Under the pieces are notes generated by a model, which was given only the letters and a program-made list of their open reading frames with translations, ran no database searches and was not told where the DNA came from. Positions 2,066 to 42,746 of a DNA stretch of 64,000 bases are shown in pieces. Position numbers and translations under genes: made by a program. How positions within the stretch are numbered: the first letter of the stretch is position 1; every line of letters starts with the position of its first letter. Source of the DNA: an uncultured Bacteroidia bacterium (GTDB lineage Bacteria > Bacteroidota > Bacteroidia > Bacteroidales > F082); contig CADCJI010000012.1 of assembly GCA_902801625.1 (NCBI GenBank), forward strand, positions 1 to 64,000. Reading direction: 5' to 3'.

Positions 2066-2177
2066 AAATAATAACGAATTATAAACCAAATCATTGGCCT
2101 ATGAAATAACGCTTCAAGCGATATGCACATCATAGAATAGGAAAAAGCGAAGTAGTTTTATTCGGGAATTTCTGAAA

Positions 2178-2321
2178 CTTGGACACTTTCAAAATTCCTC
2201 CCTGAGTAGAGCAACAACGCTCCCGCCAAAAGGCGTGGGCTGTATAGTTGTAATTGGGAGGAATAGGTAGTCCAAGACCTCAGAGATTCCGATGAAGACG
2301 AAATAGTGCCACGCTTTTTTT
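2178..2321 (+). ncRNA. Candidate structured RNA A with 3' U-run
   Basis: Nested helices can be drawn: CTTGGAC (2178-2184) with GTCCAAG (2270-2276), ATTCCTCCC (2194-2202) with GGGAGGAAT (2256-2264), ACAAC (2214-2218) with GTTGT (2247-2251), and an inner hairpin 2219-2227/2232-2240 with an AAAA loop. A CCACGC word followed by seven T (2309-2321) can pair back with GCGTGG at 2233-2238, which would disrupt the inner hairpin. The element lies in a 410-base gene-free stretch, 73 bases before the VWA gene. The same order of helices and the same 3' word are seen at 42586-42746. It could be a leader attenuator or a free small RNA. I do not recognise a known family. Confidence 0.5.
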
Positions 2322-32080: not shown

Positions 32081-32143
32081 GTGTTTATTTCAATCCTTCC
32101 GTCAGGAACTTCCGCAAATGGAGGTGGGTTTTGTCTCGGATTT

Positions 32144-32242
32144 TTCTTTTATGGAAGAAATTTTCCATAAAATCAGGAAATAATTCTTTTATAGAAGAAT
32201 TTTTATTGAAAAAGTTGAAATTCTTCTTTTATGGAAGAAATT
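32144..32242 (+). repeat. Three operator-like repeats at exact 40-bp spacing
   Basis: TTCTTTTATGGAAGAAATT occurs at 32144-32162 and 32224-32242, and TTCTTTTATAGAAGAATT at 32184-32201. Starts are exactly 40 bases apart. Each has the dyad TTCTT/AAGAA. They lie between two divergent promoters, 58 bases upstream of the -7 element of the methyltransferase unit. Probably binding sites for a regulator on one face of the helix. Confidence 0.75.
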
Positions 32243-32299
32243 GTATTGATGGAAAGATTGGTTTTCTGAATTTGAAATGTAATTATCAGAAAAATACGC

Positions 32300-32307
32300 T
32301 ATCTTTG
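32300..32307 (+). promoter_or_regulatory. -7 element of the methyltransferase unit
   Basis: TATCTTTG, with a TTTG word at 32271-32274. Transcription from here gives a leader of about 320 nt. Two ACCAAAGCAT words (32320 and 32369) lie early in the leader. Confidence 0.6.
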
Positions 32308-32391
32308 CGCCAAATAAAGACCAAAGCATCGTTAGAGATAAAAATAGAGAATAAATAACATATTATAAACCAAAGCATTAGCTATTATTTC

Positions 32392-32635
32392 GCGTTTAGC
32401 CAAGAGCCTCGCAAACTATTTGGAAATAAACAATCAGAAATAATAACAGGTAGTCATCCGATTGGAAAACCTGACCAACGAATAAAGCAATGCTTGCATC
32501 GAATAGGTGTAAGCATCTTATTTGTTGGTAGAGGTTTCCATGCGAGGCCGCCTCTAAGCTAAACGCAATAAGTGTAAGTCTTGCACCTTATCTTATTGTG
32601 TTTGCGGAAAATAGAAGTGCTAAACTATTATCCGC
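32392..32635 (+). ncRNA. Candidate structured leader RNA C of the DNA methyltransferase gene
   Basis: The leader folds into one long, interrupted hairpin: GCGTTTAGC (32392-32400) with GCTAAACGC (32558-32566); AGAG and CCTCGCA (32403-32413) with TGCGAGG and CTCT (32541-32555); GGAAAACCT (32464) with AGGTTTCC (32532); ACCAACGAATAA (32474) with TTATTTGTTGGT (32518); ATGCTTGCA (32490) with TGTAAGCAT (32508). A second hairpin follows at 32564-32599. A third pairs GCGGAAAATAG (32603) with CTATTATCCGC, ending at base 32635 immediately before the ATG. The last one would hide the ribosome entry region. No known riboswitch family recognised. Confidence 0.6.
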
Positions 32636-33706
32636 ATGGCCAATAAAAACCTGAATCAAGCAAAGAACGCAAAAAAGGATGAGTTTTATACCCAACTTGT
32701 TGATATTGAGAACGAGTTGAGGCATTATAAAGAGCATTTTAAGGGCAAGACGGTGCTTTGTAACTGCGACGATCCGCGTGTGAGCAACTTTTTCCATTAT
32801 TTCAGCTACAATTTCGAGCAATTGGGTTTGAAGAAGCTAATTACCACTTGCTACAAGAACCAAAACCGCGACTTGTTCAGTCAAAACGATGCCGAACAAG
32901 CCATTTGGTTGGAGTATTTTGGTGACCGCAATGGCAACCGTGTGCCCGACCCCGAGGAAATCGGTATTCATTATTTCAAAGGTGATGGTGATTTCCGTTC
33001 TGCTGAGTGCATCGAGTTGCTCAAAGAAGCCGATATTGTGGTGACCAATCCCCCTTTCTCATTGTTTCGGGAGTATGTGGCGCAATTGATGAAGTATGAT
33101 AAGAAGTTTGTTATCTTAGGAAGAATGAGTGCATTGCATTATTCAGAAATATTCCCTTTGATTCAAGATAACAGAATATGGTTGGGATACGGGTTTAACC
33201 TATCGATGATATATAAAACGCCATATTCTAATGATTTAGAGGCAAATAAAAAGTTTGTGCAATCTAAAGGCTATAATCCTGATGAAAACTATATTAAGGT
33301 TCCTGCTATTACTTGGTTTACCAATCTAGATCATCAAAAGCGTCATGAATCACTGATAATGTATAAACAGTACAACCCAGAAGAATACCCAAAATATGAG
33401 AACTATGATGCTATCAATGTTGATTCTGTAAGTGAAATACCTATGGATTACTTTGATGTGATGGGTGTGCCAGATTCTTTTCTTGGGCAATTAAACCCTG
33501 AGCAATTTGAGATAGTAGGATTAGGAAGCGGTGATTTAGCAAAACAGATTGGAATTAAGAAGAATTATAGAGGAAGAACAGATCTTGCTTTGTGCATTAA
33601 TGGAGTGAATAGATGTCCCTATAGCCGTATCCTCATCCGTCGTAAACAAAAGCCAATAGACTACGCTTCGGTAGAACTGACGGTCTCGATGGCGGCAGAA
33701 AACTAA
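32636..33706 (+). CDS. EcoRI-family adenine-specific DNA methyltransferase
   Basis: 356 residues. Predicted N6-adenine DNA methyltransferase of the M.EcoRI family (PF13651). KKDEFYTQ near residue 14, LCNCDDPRVSNFFHYF (41-56, SAM-binding region) and the catalytic VVTNPPFSLFREY near 138 are present. Length is close to M.EcoRI. Base composition changes inside the gene: 32636-33120 looks host-like, while about 33120-33610 is clearly richer in A and T, as if the region that sets the target had been exchanged. It is preceded by the folded leader and followed, after a 200-base repeat region, by a DUF262-HNH gene. No EcoRI-like endonuclease is present, so it may be an orphan or work with the HNH protein. 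Confidence 0.85.
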   Translation: MANKNLNQAKNAKKDEFYTQLVDIENELRHYKEHFKGKTVLCNCDDPRVSNFFHYFSYNFEQLGLKKLITTCYKNQNRDLFSQNDAEQAIWLEYFGDRNGNRVPDPEEIGIHYFKGDGDFRSAECIELLKEADIVVTNPPFSLFREYVAQLMKYDKKFVILGRMSALHYSEIFPLIQDNRIWLGYGFNLSMIYKTPYSNDLEANKKFVQSKGYNPDENYIKVPAITWFTNLDHQKRHESLIMYKQYNPEEYPKYENYDAINVDSVSEIPMDYFDVMGVPDSFLGQLNPEQFEIVGLGSGDLAKQIGIKKNYRGRTDLALCINGVNRCPYSRILIRRKQKPIDYASVELTVSMAAEN

Positions 33707-33906: not shown

Positions 33907-34998
33907 ATGAACATAGAACTACACAAAATCACCGTCCGCGAGCTGACCAAAGGCTACGTGGATAACAATGAAAACGGCGTGCGCGCCTATGGCGGCCGCC
34001 TCGACGTGCGCCCGCCCTACCAGCGCGAGTTCGTCTACAAAGAAAAACAGCGCGATGCCGTCATCGACACGCTCACCCAAGGCTTTCCGCTCAATGTGAT
34101 GTATTGGGCCGTACGCGACGACGACACTTTCGAAATCATCGACGGGCAGCAGCGCACCATCAGCATCTGCCAATATGTCAATGGCGACTTCGCCTTCAAC
34201 TTCCGCTATTTCCACAACCTCCAGCCCGATGAGCAAGAACAAATCCTCAACTATGAGTTGCAAATCTACATCTGTAGCGGCACCGACAGTGAGAAGCTGA
34301 AATGGTTCCGAACCATCAACATCGCGGGAGAGGCGCTCACCGAGCAGGAGCTGCGCAACGCGGTGTATGCAGGCAGTTGGGTGAGCGACGCCAAACGCTA
34401 TTTCAGCAAGAACGGTGCACCTGCCGCAAAAATCGGTAGCGACTACCTCAACGGCTCCGCCATCCGTCAGGACTACCTCGAAACCGCCATCGACTGGATT
34501 TCGGACGGCAATATCGAGGTCTACATGTCGAACCACCAGCATGATGCCAGTGCCGCACCGCTGTGGCAGTTCTTCCAGTCGGTCATCACCTGGATTGAGA
34601 CCTCGTTCCGCCCGACCAAGGAACGCAAGAAAATCATGAAAGGCGTGGAGTGGGGGATGCTCTACAAGCAATACAAAGACCAAGTGTTTGACTACAAAGC
34701 CATCGATGAAGAAGTAAAACGCCTTATCCTCGACGATGATGTAACTAAAAATTCAGGTATTTATCCCTATATTCTTACACGCAAGGAGAAATATCTGTCG
34801 ATTCGAGCCTTCACCGATGCACAAAAATTGTCGGCATACGAAAGGCAGATGGGTTTTTGTGCCGACTGTAAGCAGCATTTCGAGCTCTCCCAAATGGAAG
34901 CCGACCACATCACACCGTGGCACCTCGGCGGCAAGACCATTGCGGAGAATTGTCAGATGCTCTGCAAGGAATGTAATAGACGGAAGAGTGGAAAATAA
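33907..34998 (+). CDS. DUF262 (GmrSD/ParB-like) protein with C-terminal HNH nuclease domain
   Basis: 363 residues. The N-terminal DUF262 domain shows RPPYQREFVY and DGQQRTISI (about residue 79), the motifs of a ParB-like nucleotide-hydrolysing fold. The C-terminus is an HNH nuclease: CADC near 318, EADHITPWHLGG with the HNH His residues, and CKECNRRKSGK at the end, with the two CxxC pairs as zinc ligands. This layout fuses on one chain the GmrS-like and nuclease parts of type IV restriction enzymes; relatives occur in defence islands. It lies behind the methyltransferase gene, so a modification-plus-nuclease pair is plausible but not shown. Confidence 0.82.
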   Translation: MNIELHKITVRELTKGYVDNNENGVRAYGGRLDVRPPYQREFVYKEKQRDAVIDTLTQGFPLNVMYWAVRDDDTFEIIDGQQRTISICQYVNGDFAFNFRYFHNLQPDEQEQILNYELQIYICSGTDSEKLKWFRTINIAGEALTEQELRNAVYAGSWVSDAKRYFSKNGAPAAKIGSDYLNGSAIRQDYLETAIDWISDGNIEVYMSNHQHDASAAPLWQFFQSVITWIETSFRPTKERKKIMKGVEWGMLYKQYKDQVFDYKAIDEEVKRLILDDDVTKNSGIYPYILTRKEKYLSIRAFTDAQKLSAYERQMGFCADCKQHFELSQMEADHITPWHLGGKTIAENCQMLCKECNRRKSGK

Positions 34999-35162: not shown

Positions 35163-36233
35163 ATGGAAGCGAAAAAACTGCAAATTGCATTGGAGAAGTG
35201 GAATGCTATTCAACCCTTGTCGGAGAAAGATCGAGAAAGGTTGAGTCGAAAGTTTTCCGTTGATTTCAATTACAACAGCAACCATATGGAGGGCAATACT
35301 CTGACATACGGTCAAACCGAATTGCTTTTGCTGTTTGGGAAGGTCATCGGTGAGGCTGATTTTCGGGAATATGAGGAGATGAAAGCGAGCAATGTGGGAT
35401 TGAAAATGATGACCGTCGAGGCAGTTGACCAGGACAAGCCACTCACTCAAAATTTTATTCGGACTCTGCATCGCACGTTGCTACGTGAGGATTACACCGT
35501 ATATAGAACGCTTCCTGGAGGCGTGCAGACCAGTTATGTCATTCATGCGGGGCAGTACAAAACCCGTCCTAACAGTGTAATTACTCGCTATGGTGACCGT
35601 TTCGACTATGCTTCTCCTGAGGAGACACCCTCTTTGATGACTGACTTGGTTGATTGGTATAATCAAACGGAACAAAGCGGTACTTTGTCGCCTGCTGATT
35701 TGGCCATTTTATTTCACTATCGCTACATACGTATTCACCCGTTTGAGGATGGCAACGGACGCATAGCCCGACTTCTGATGAATTTCATCCTTTCAAGGCA
35801 TGGTTATCCGATGATTGTGGTGCGAAGTCGGCAAAAGCAGCAATATCTTGAAGCCTTGCATCGCTCTGATTTGAAGGTGGGAAGTGAGCCAGCGGTTGGT
35901 GCCAAAGCCACTATTAAGCAAATCAAGCCTTTCCAAAAGCACATGACAGACCTCATGGCGCATGAGATAGAGATGGATACGCTTTTTGTGACGGAGAAAT
36001 CGGAGGATTTGTGGTGGTATGACGGACAAAGAATCATGTTTCGCACGCCTACCTACGGAAAAATCCTAAACGAATTGCTTACCGATAGTCATCCTACATA
36101 CGCATCTTTGCAGGAAGCGACTGGGGTCAACCGCTCGGCTCTTCAGAAAATGATTCAAACCATGATTGAAAAGGGGTATATCGAACGTGATGATGAGGGT
36201 GGCTGGCGCGTGTTCATCACCTCATCTATGTAA
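35163..36233 (+). CDS. Fic-domain protein (probable AMP transferase) with winged-helix C-terminus
   Basis: 356 residues. HPFEDGNGRIARLL (His192) is the complete Fic active-site motif, so transfer of AMP from ATP to a protein hydroxyl is likely. The inhibitory helix motif SNHMEGN (Ser39, Glu43) lies N-terminal to the Fic core, making this a class II, self-inhibited Fic protein. The C-terminal 80 residues (YASLQEATGVNRSALQKMIQTMIEKGYIERDDEGG) form a winged helix that could bind the palindromes before and after the gene. Fic proteins of this layout occur alone, without a separate antitoxin, as here. The target protein is unknown. Confidence 0.88.
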   Translation: MEAKKLQIALEKWNAIQPLSEKDRERLSRKFSVDFNYNSNHMEGNTLTYGQTELLLLFGKVIGEADFREYEEMKASNVGLKMMTVEAVDQDKPLTQNFIRTLHRTLLREDYTVYRTLPGGVQTSYVIHAGQYKTRPNSVITRYGDRFDYASPEETPSLMTDLVDWYNQTEQSGTLSPADLAILFHYRYIRIHPFEDGNGRIARLLMNFILSRHGYPMIVVRSRQKQQYLEALHRSDLKVGSEPAVGAKATIKQIKPFQKHMTDLMAHEIEMDTLFVTEKSEDLWWYDGQRIMFRTPTYGKILNELLTDSHPTYASLQEATGVNRSALQKMIQTMIEKGYIERDDEGGWRVFITSSM

Positions 36234-42477: not shown

Positions 42478-42585
42478 ATCAGTTTGTTATAATGAGATAA
42501 ATTAAAGTTGAACCAAAATAATCGAACAAAAGAAAAGAAGATAAACACAAAGACATAAAATAATCAGATAGCACTTGTTGCTGTC

Positions 42586-42746
42586 CTTGAACACCAAAGT
42601 TCCATTTAGACCCCGTTTTGGCGGGGCAACAACTCAAGGACAAGTTGCAAATGCCGTATTGGGTACGGCGTGGAATACTTGTTAGAGTTGTAGGGCGTGG
42701 AACCCCTGGTGTTCAAGCAAGGAATTGATTCCACGCTGTTTTTTTT
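42586..42746 (+). ncRNA. Candidate structured RNA B with alternative terminator pairing
   Basis: Closing helix CTTGAACACC (42586) with GGTGTTCAAG (42708-42717); second helix GTTCCA (42599) with TGGAAC (42698); hairpin CCCCG/CGGGG (42611-42626); helix ACAACTC (42629) with GAGTTGT (42685); inner hairpin GCCGT/ACGGC (42653-42669). ATTCCACGC (42728-42736), followed by a T-run (42739-42746), can pair either with GCGTGGAAT at 42668-42676 or with GCGTGGAA at 42695-42702; both pairings compete with the helices above. The rest of the 322-base gap is A-rich. It resembles RNA A at 2178-2321 in helix order and 3' word. Confidence 0.55.

Follow-up and report, generated by a model that had tools for sequence, protein, structure and literature searches.

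A long folded leader precedes the gene for an EcoRI-type adenine DNA methyltransferase in the window, a 64,000-nt stretch of contig CADCJI010000012.1 from an uncultured Bacteroidia bacterium. Computational comparison of homologous leaders shows the fold to be a genuine RNA structure of the gene strand. We class it as a new family among structured leader RNAs, a kind already known, and an earlier unnamed sighting of it is possible. Judged from sequence, we give a little better than even confidence to the reading that the leader is a cis-acting RNA switch of an unclassified Bacteroidota family, in which a 3′ segment (F3) would compete with the 5′ strand of a hairpin (P6). Comparative analysis also shows exchange of the leader core at orthologous loci that retain the gene. 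If these readings hold, Bacteroidota carry an undescribed class of leader RNA, in many copies per genome, before restriction-modification and secreted-protein genes, the controlled functions bear on phage infection and host contact, and an RNA layer is added to a phylum in which such control is little known. The family would also offer an example of wholesale exchange of leader cores with the gene retained; its leaders are ready reporters, and the timing of restriction-modification genes would become testable with one leader and a reporter.

Architecture of the leader

The methyltransferase gene (32636–33706, + strand; PF13651; PADLOC MTase_II) begins with the ATG at 32636 and is followed by a gene for a GmrSD_N and HNH nuclease (33907–34998, +; PADLOC REase_II, a type II restriction enzyme), the probable partner of the methylase. 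All leader features described below lie on the same strand. A promoter-like box, TATCTTTG, at 32300–32307, which we take to match the Bacteroidota −7 consensus, is in line with the leader length of about 320 nt given in an earlier note on this DNA. Positions 32392–32635 (244 nt) fold at −88.8 kcal/mol, compared with a mean of −51.9 (sd 4.5) for 200 dinucleotide shuffles, none of which folds as well (z −8.26). The nested helices that the earlier note had drawn between 32392 and 32566 are borne out with their coordinates unchanged, as are the two hairpins that it placed after this core, at 32566–32598 and 32604–32635; the last pairs 32604–32614 with 32625–32635 (11 positions, 10 pairing) and stops at the base before the ATG.

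The architecture extends beyond these helices and comprises a P1–P3 rod, a P5/P6 arm, the two pseudoknots PK1 and PK3, the F3 segment and the hairpin adjoining the ATG. The conserved element starts 5′ of 32392, as PK1 uses 32383–32391 (TATTATTTC), where a conserved motif of about 35 nt (AATAACATATTATAAACCAAAGCATTAGCTATTATT, 32354–32389) ends; this motif forms the left border of the replaced stretch. The core domain (32392–32566), defined by fold and covariation, is closed by the outer helix P1 (GCGTTTAGC/GCTAAACGC, 32392–32400/32558–32566). Within it stand P2 (GCCTCGCA, 32406–32413, with TGCGAGGC, 32541–32548) and P3 (GGAAAT, 32422–32427, with GTTTCC, 32534–32539), followed by the 3′ strand of PK1 (GAAATAATA, 32437–32445), which thus joins the 5′ flank to the segment after P3. 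A side hairpin, P4 (32447–32473), precedes P5 (32475–32485/32518–32528), whose sequence is very variable while its pairing is conserved, and the P6 hairpin (32490–32516; strands 32490–32500/32506–32516). PK3 (32530–32555) pairs AGAGG (32530–32534) with CCTCT (32551–32555), flanking the 3′ strand of P2. The P7 hairpin (32566–32598) carries F3 (CTTGCACC, 32580–32587) in its loop, and F3 is complementary to the P6 3′ strand (GGTGTAAG, 32506–32513), for which it is a second partner. The SL8 hairpin (32604–32635) lies directly before the ATG at 32636, and among the leaders read its sequence varies with the pairing kept. A possible pairing of the 5′ and 3′ ends is seen in short forms of the element. 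A pairing of TATTATT with ATAAG is invariant in 14 leaders and hence uninformative. A conserved leader peptide was considered and rejected by inspection, the longest open reading frames in 41 leaders differing in start and length (12–42 aa).

Covariation and the transcribed strand

The structure was examined in A3, an alignment of 40 distinct leaders fitted to a covariance model. In A3, which like A5 was fitted to a model that found its own rows, 93.0% of 1941 cells pair, and 45 of 51 pairs show changes on both sides. Cells with such double changes number 440, against 134.5 in shuffles (0 of 500 had as many) and 43–89 for slid structures. A fresh RNAalifold prediction on A3 gives 43 pairs, 39 with compensatory change, and a plain MAFFT alignment of 14 leaders, outside any model fitting, already covaries. 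The check on homologous leaders proposed in the earlier note therefore reveals heavy compensatory change, the opposite of the outcome that would speak against the helices. Among the non-Watson-Crick cells read on the gene strand there are 234 G-U against 18 A-C, with 118 other mismatches; the G-U excess fits a transcript of the gene strand.

Three further pairings lie outside the models. The long-leader counts for PK1 and F3, the strand, promoter-signal and terminator-signal counts and the comparison of leaders with methylases below omit leaders shorter than 158 nt and L080, L200, L207, L208 and L209; all of these except the PK1 and F3 counts also omit L038. PK1 takes the forms TATTATTTC/GAAATAATA, TTATTCG/CGGATAA, ACTATTATTTTG/CAAAATGATGGT and GCTATCATTG/CAATGATGGT, and exceeds the cross-pairing mean in 73 of 90 long leaders but in only 51 of 76 short ones. 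PK3, with strands such as AGAGGT/GCCTCT, AAGGT/ACCTT and CGGGG/CCCCG in long leaders, is above cross-pairing in 29 of 40 long and 69 of 75 short leaders; in the latter 75 it reads GGT/ACC in 53 and GGC/GCC in 13. F3 and the P6 3′ strand remain complementary in different sequences (AGGTGTGAAC/GTTCACACCT, GGTGCAGGC/GCTTGCACC, AGCGTGGG/CCCACGCT, GATGTAAG/CTTGCATC); among long leaders 75 of 87 score higher than the cross-pairing mean, and among short ones 71 of 76 do. This pairing reaches at least 6 bp in 73 of 76 short leaders and goes down to 5–6 bp in several type-B leaders. Because both F3 and the P6 5′ strand pair with the P6 3′ strand, the two are mutually exclusive. In the window the F3 duplex, at −11.6 kcal/mol, outweighs the corresponding P6 strands (−8.8), but the whole P6 hairpin, at −14.9 kcal/mol, is stronger than the F3 duplex.

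Distribution of the family

All genomes searched belong to Bacteroidota, and the tallies include the window's own genome and come from overlapping samples. A DNA search of 149 relatives finds matches in 50, and the homologous loci are two-layered: the conserved motif of about 35 nt (32354–32389 in the window) is followed by a structured element of very different sequence. A covariance model from 14 near leaders (R1) matched 40 of 99 genus genomes, many of them outside the training types. A model from 41 leaders (R2) matched, at E 0.01, 55 of 173 family genomes (one genus of 16), 35 of 393 order genomes and 4 of 395 phylum genomes, the weakest near the threshold. A motif scan of named genomes returned 63 stretches, titled Bacteroidales, Bacteroidia, Bacteroidetes, Paludibacteraceae, Candidatus Limimorpha caballi or bacterium F082. 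The short form of the element, modelled from twelve short relatives (R3), is present at E 0.001 in 106 of 247 order genomes and 32 of 247 phylum genomes, where copy numbers are lower bounds, few candidates having been scored per genome. In the window's own genome R3 marks 19 places at E 0.01 among the 150 of 782 candidates scored. One of these lies in the window at 2147–2321 (+), 72 nt before a gene at 2394; a weaker match at 42571–42743 (+) has E 0.004 in the window search only and is not among the 19. The same window search recovers the methylase leader itself at E 0.006.

The earlier note recognised no known RNA family in the leader, and the Rfam scans agree. At the gathering score, Rfam 15 finds two tRNAs only in the whole window; up to E 10, positions 32280–32680 draw one miRNA model, at 19 bits versus 75; and 9 + 8 further loci give only sub-threshold miRNA or leader-peptide models, none credible. 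One long leader compared by blastn with both a phage and a plasmid collection, and two short ones compared with one collection each, gave no match, and two exact motifs were absent from viral contigs. There is thus no evidence of phage carriage at that sensitivity.

Genes that follow the leader

Distinct R2 leaders numbering 104 were collected with the window as seed, not as a census. A PF13651 methylase adjoins 65 of them, all among the 89 long leaders, and in a second set of loci (L170–L209, mostly from other families) it follows 14 of 30 long leaders. The distance from the end of the model to the DEFYT motif of the methylase, which involves no choice of start codon, is 93–117 nt in 64 leaders; with the start taken as the in-frame ATG nearest 65 nt, the spacing is 51–75 nt, a range that arises partly by that choice. 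Conversely, 60 genus genomes contain 40 methylase places, of which 32 have an R2 match within 700 nt upstream. The other eight comprise one contig end, one short-form leader (L233), one fragment, two 35% paralogues, one place with none (G001) and two not read. Two methylases in other families, at L226 and L230, also show no leader by eye.

The element also precedes other genes. By Pfam, these encode MmeI-type enzymes (L171, L175), a D12 methylase (L180), N6_N4 methylases (L186, L192), N6/Eco57I methylases (L037, L039), a ResIII-HNH protein (L035), a SNF2/ResIII helicase (L181), DarT (L038), acyltransferases (L139, L195), DUF2334 (L084, with the same start at L094), glycosyltransferase 2 (L101, L087), sulfatases (L185, L190, L196), GDSL hydrolases (L204, L206) and weak HTH matches (L174, L176); methylase motifs are seen by eye only at L173, L179, L034 and L091. 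Export-signal-like starts, scored by a crude rule, occur in 43 of 65 first downstream genes versus 25 of 95 other open reading frames from the same loci (Fisher p 7.5e-7), and in 14 of 46 open reading frames of the window. The copy at 2147–2321 precedes a gene (2394) with an export-signal start and a VWA domain, and the match at 42571–42743 lies 56 nt before the gene of a Por-secretion-tail protein (42800). The view that the leader is particular to a DNA methyltransferase thus finds no support, since other restriction genes, DarT, envelope enzymes and export-signal genes also carry it. A tie to the entry of a genomic island finds no support either, as the RNA fronts envelope and export-signal genes and the identities of leader and methylase are scarcely correlated (below). 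What stands of the earlier proposal is a structured, plausibly regulatory leader, which may bind a metabolite or a protein; what lacks support is its methyltransferase- or island-specific role.

Orientation is consistent with a leader. The next open reading frame is on the same strand for 99 of 104 R2 leaders (opposite for 3, none seen for 2) and for 14 of 14 fetched later. Of 71 short copies, 67 are followed by a gene in the same orientation, 2 by one in the opposite orientation and 2 by none seen, at a median of 68 nt, and the upstream gene is on the same strand in 40 and divergent in 24 of the 71; in the window's own genome, by reading, the next gene is on the same strand for 19 of 19 short copies. 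Conserved structure, on the gene strand and directly upstream of a gene, is therefore the rule, the exception being one shared place in three genus genomes (L207, 3016–3198, +; L208, 5080–5242, −; L209, 3029–3205, +). There a copy with a −7 box and an F3/P6 match has a divergent gene upstream and a convergent gene after it, and by position it looks like a stand-alone RNA.

Several groups of loci were also noted beside these counts. A diverged leader stands before one kind of gene in eleven genus genomes (L319–L326, L328–L330), which, where its start is plain, encodes a basic protein of about 105 aa (NEIKETKRGTRKPRAKRATAAEGDE). Two short copies of the own genome (L302, L303) precede, by eye, large PLD-nuclease and SNF2-type helicase-like open reading frames. 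Seven short copies (L272, L273, L275, L277, L280, L290, L293) lie about 200–680 nt before genes with similar export-signal starts (such as YFSFYKDGKALYCL), possibly outer-membrane receptors. In L021 (987–5459), L022 (1848–3736) and L025 (reverse strand), DUF1016- and RhuM-like genes, identified by eye, form arrays in which each gene follows the 35-nt motif, in some cases joined by an incomplete 5′ part of the leader; a full leader follows the array in L025, and in L021 a leader begins at the contig end.

Replacement of leader cores

Across 60 methylase leaders, leader identity and methylase identity correlate at r = 0.11, which points to uncoupled histories of leader and methylase. Six pairs have methylases more than 85% identical and leaders less than 60% identical, and seven pairs have leaders above 80% and methylases below 55%. 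The orthologous L127 and L086 are near-identical over the upstream 320 nt through the motif, fall to about 40% in the core and match again at the gene. For L119/L136 and L090/L085, similarity upstream of the core covers only about 95 nt. The sequences come together again at SL8 in L119/L136, while SL8 itself differs in the other two pairs; thus the right border of the replaced stretch varies.

Promoter-like and terminator-like signals

A −7-like box (TAnnTTTG) occurs within 250 nt upstream of 49 of 88 long leaders, mostly 64–106 nt upstream, where 8.8 are expected, and a hairpin with a U-run occurs within 60 nt 3′ of P1 in 30 of 89, where 3.1 are expected; both expectations come from mononucleotide shuffles, and the counts include orthologous loci, which are not independent of one another. 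The same scan finds no terminator in the other 59 long leaders. P7 is accordingly terminator-like in part of the family; in the window copy, this hairpin and U-run scan gives no terminator at P7. A consensus tool marks P6, not P7, as terminator-like in the window, with 11 sites in 4.5 kb where 4.2 are expected. Short leaders, which lack SL8 where read, have a run of five T at the element end in 53 of 76 cases, a frequency biased by R3, which itself models the U-run.

A proposed switch and its alternatives

Standing directly before restriction-modification and secreted-protein genes, the RNA probably controls their switching on. In the mechanism that we favour, transcription would begin from a promoter near 32300, and the emerging RNA would fold into a knotted core, a P1–P3 rod tied by PK1 and PK3 and bearing the P5/P6 arm. 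Once the 3′ part has been made, F3, carried in the P7 loop, could take over the P6 3′ strand and so drive off the P6 5′ strand; the choice between these exclusive pairings would determine whether RNA polymerase halts or goes on into the gene. A translational gate may be added by SL8, next to the ATG. We infer the switch function, its output in termination and, from the kinds of genes that follow, a signal in phage exposure or the state of the cell surface. The fold, its strand and position and the conserved, exclusive F3/P6 pairing fit a switch of the attenuation type, and a terminator-like site is found in about a third of long leaders, though not in the window copy. A terminator spanning a structured loop of 60–90 nt would be unusual, which counts against attenuation, as do the lack of a terminator by the scan in 59 of 89 long leaders, the short F3/P6 3′ pairing of several type-B leaders and the greater stability of the whole P6 hairpin over the F3 duplex in the window.

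The leader could instead act on translation or mRNA stability only, with a protein or ligand at the core or SL8 gating the start site and the F3/P6 exchange being a structural rearrangement, with no terminator switch. SL8, which ends at the start codon and keeps its pairing while its sequence varies, and the window P7, which scores no terminator, agree with such a mode of action; it is nonetheless unlikely, given that terminator-like sites of long leaders are enriched about tenfold within 60 nt after P1 and that the U-run ends most short copies, which, where read, do without SL8. It is also conceivable, though we hold it quite improbable, that a stand-alone trans-acting RNA is produced from the element, as its only product or as a further one. 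As at loci of the type III toxin-antitoxin or retron kind, the U-run would then be the normal 3′ end of this RNA, with expression of the downstream gene depending on read-through, and a solitary copy could even regulate leaders by pairing. A promoter-like box, a structured RNA, a U-rich end and then a gene, in many copies, fit such an arrangement, and at L207–L209 there is nothing to lead; this placement counts against pure cis action and has lowered our confidence in it while raising that in a stand-alone RNA. However, only 3 of 118 R2 copies are so placed (113 have a gene on the same strand and for 2 no gene is seen), the spacing to the methylase is tight, and no single protein partner recurs, with neither ToxN nor a reverse transcriptase among the downstream proteins scanned.

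Replacement of cores at orthologous loci, the uncoupled histories of leader and methylase, and the arrays with the motif before DUF1016/RhuM-like genes would suit an element that is chiefly a DNA-level recombination site or a mobile cassette end for the exchange of defence and surface genes. This we consider highly improbable, because G-U is tolerated on one strand only (234 to 18), which argues for a transcript, and homologous recombination in the flanks is enough for exchange. A wider picture can be drawn tentatively, and is as a whole rather doubtful: a phylum-wide RNA switch would set the restriction-modification and cell-surface genes that decide phage susceptibility, its cores being swapped between genes as control parts, so that the leaders would be under diversifying selection. 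It might respond to one shared signal, act stochastically or work through a solitary trans-acting copy.

Relation to known systems

The trp attenuator, T-box and metabolite riboswitches are structured 5′ leaders with mutually exclusive pairings near a U-rich hairpin. The leader shares this layout, including its place right in front of a gene, and differs in that it lacks an Rfam match in the loci scanned and has a core tied by two pseudoknots. Its downstream genes are of mixed function, so that no metabolite is obvious and the gene content suggests no ligand. Restriction-modification genes are known to be controlled by C proteins or antisense RNA, which time methylase and nuclease; unlike in that control, the same leader here also precedes genes outside restriction-modification. 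The attC site is a single-stranded DNA hairpin 3′ of cassettes that works with an integron integrase; the leader element lies 5′ of genes, and its strand asymmetry fits RNA. As to type III toxin-antitoxin systems, the leaders read contain no tandem copies and the downstream proteins scanned include no ToxN. With respect to HEARO or IscB omega RNA, the loci scanned match no Rfam family and a PF13651 gene follows the leader; with respect to retron RNAs, the scanned products of downstream genes include no reverse transcriptase.

The epsC (EAR) motif of Bacillales and JUMPstart of gamma-Proteobacteria, both with Rfam numbers, are described as elongation-altering RNAs in the leaders of surface-polysaccharide genes (PMC2864571). 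They are likewise surface-gene leaders, and neither Rfam model matched here. The FopS small RNAs of Bacteroides are reported to be trans-acting, with a single-stranded 5′ part and one terminator hairpin, and to comprise 9 intergenic, 4 antisense and 1 3′-UTR member (PMC11697453). FopS and the present family are both multi-copy Bacteroidota RNAs linked to surface genes. Structured RNAs of Bacteroidota have come from comparative genomics (Weinberg 2010, PMC2864571; Fremin and Bhatt 2021, PMC8040213), and those Bacteroidota candidates that are in Rfam do not match the leader. Bacteroides-2 and GUCCY-hairpin are listed without an Rfam number (PMC2864571), and overlap with such uncurated predictions, including the models of Fremin and Bhatt 2021, is possible. 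A literature search found no description of this RNA.

Other features of the locus

A Fic family gene (35163–36233; PADLOC SoFic and PDC-S04) lies 3′ of the restriction pair, and open reading frames with similar starts also lie 3′ of the restriction pair at L119, L107 and L136. In the interval from a transglutaminase gene to the promoter of the leader, positions 32140–32242 hold three 23-nt copies (TTCTTTTATGGAAGAA-like) with an exact spacing of 40 nt. A 29-nt inverted repeat (32063–32091/32289–32317; 79% complementary, 197 nt apart) is probably no invertible switch, because it contains two divergent TATCTTTGC boxes. A 52-nt direct repeat (33702–33753/33840–33891, 77% identical), accompanied by a GTCCCGTAGGGAC palindrome, lies between the methylase and nuclease genes.
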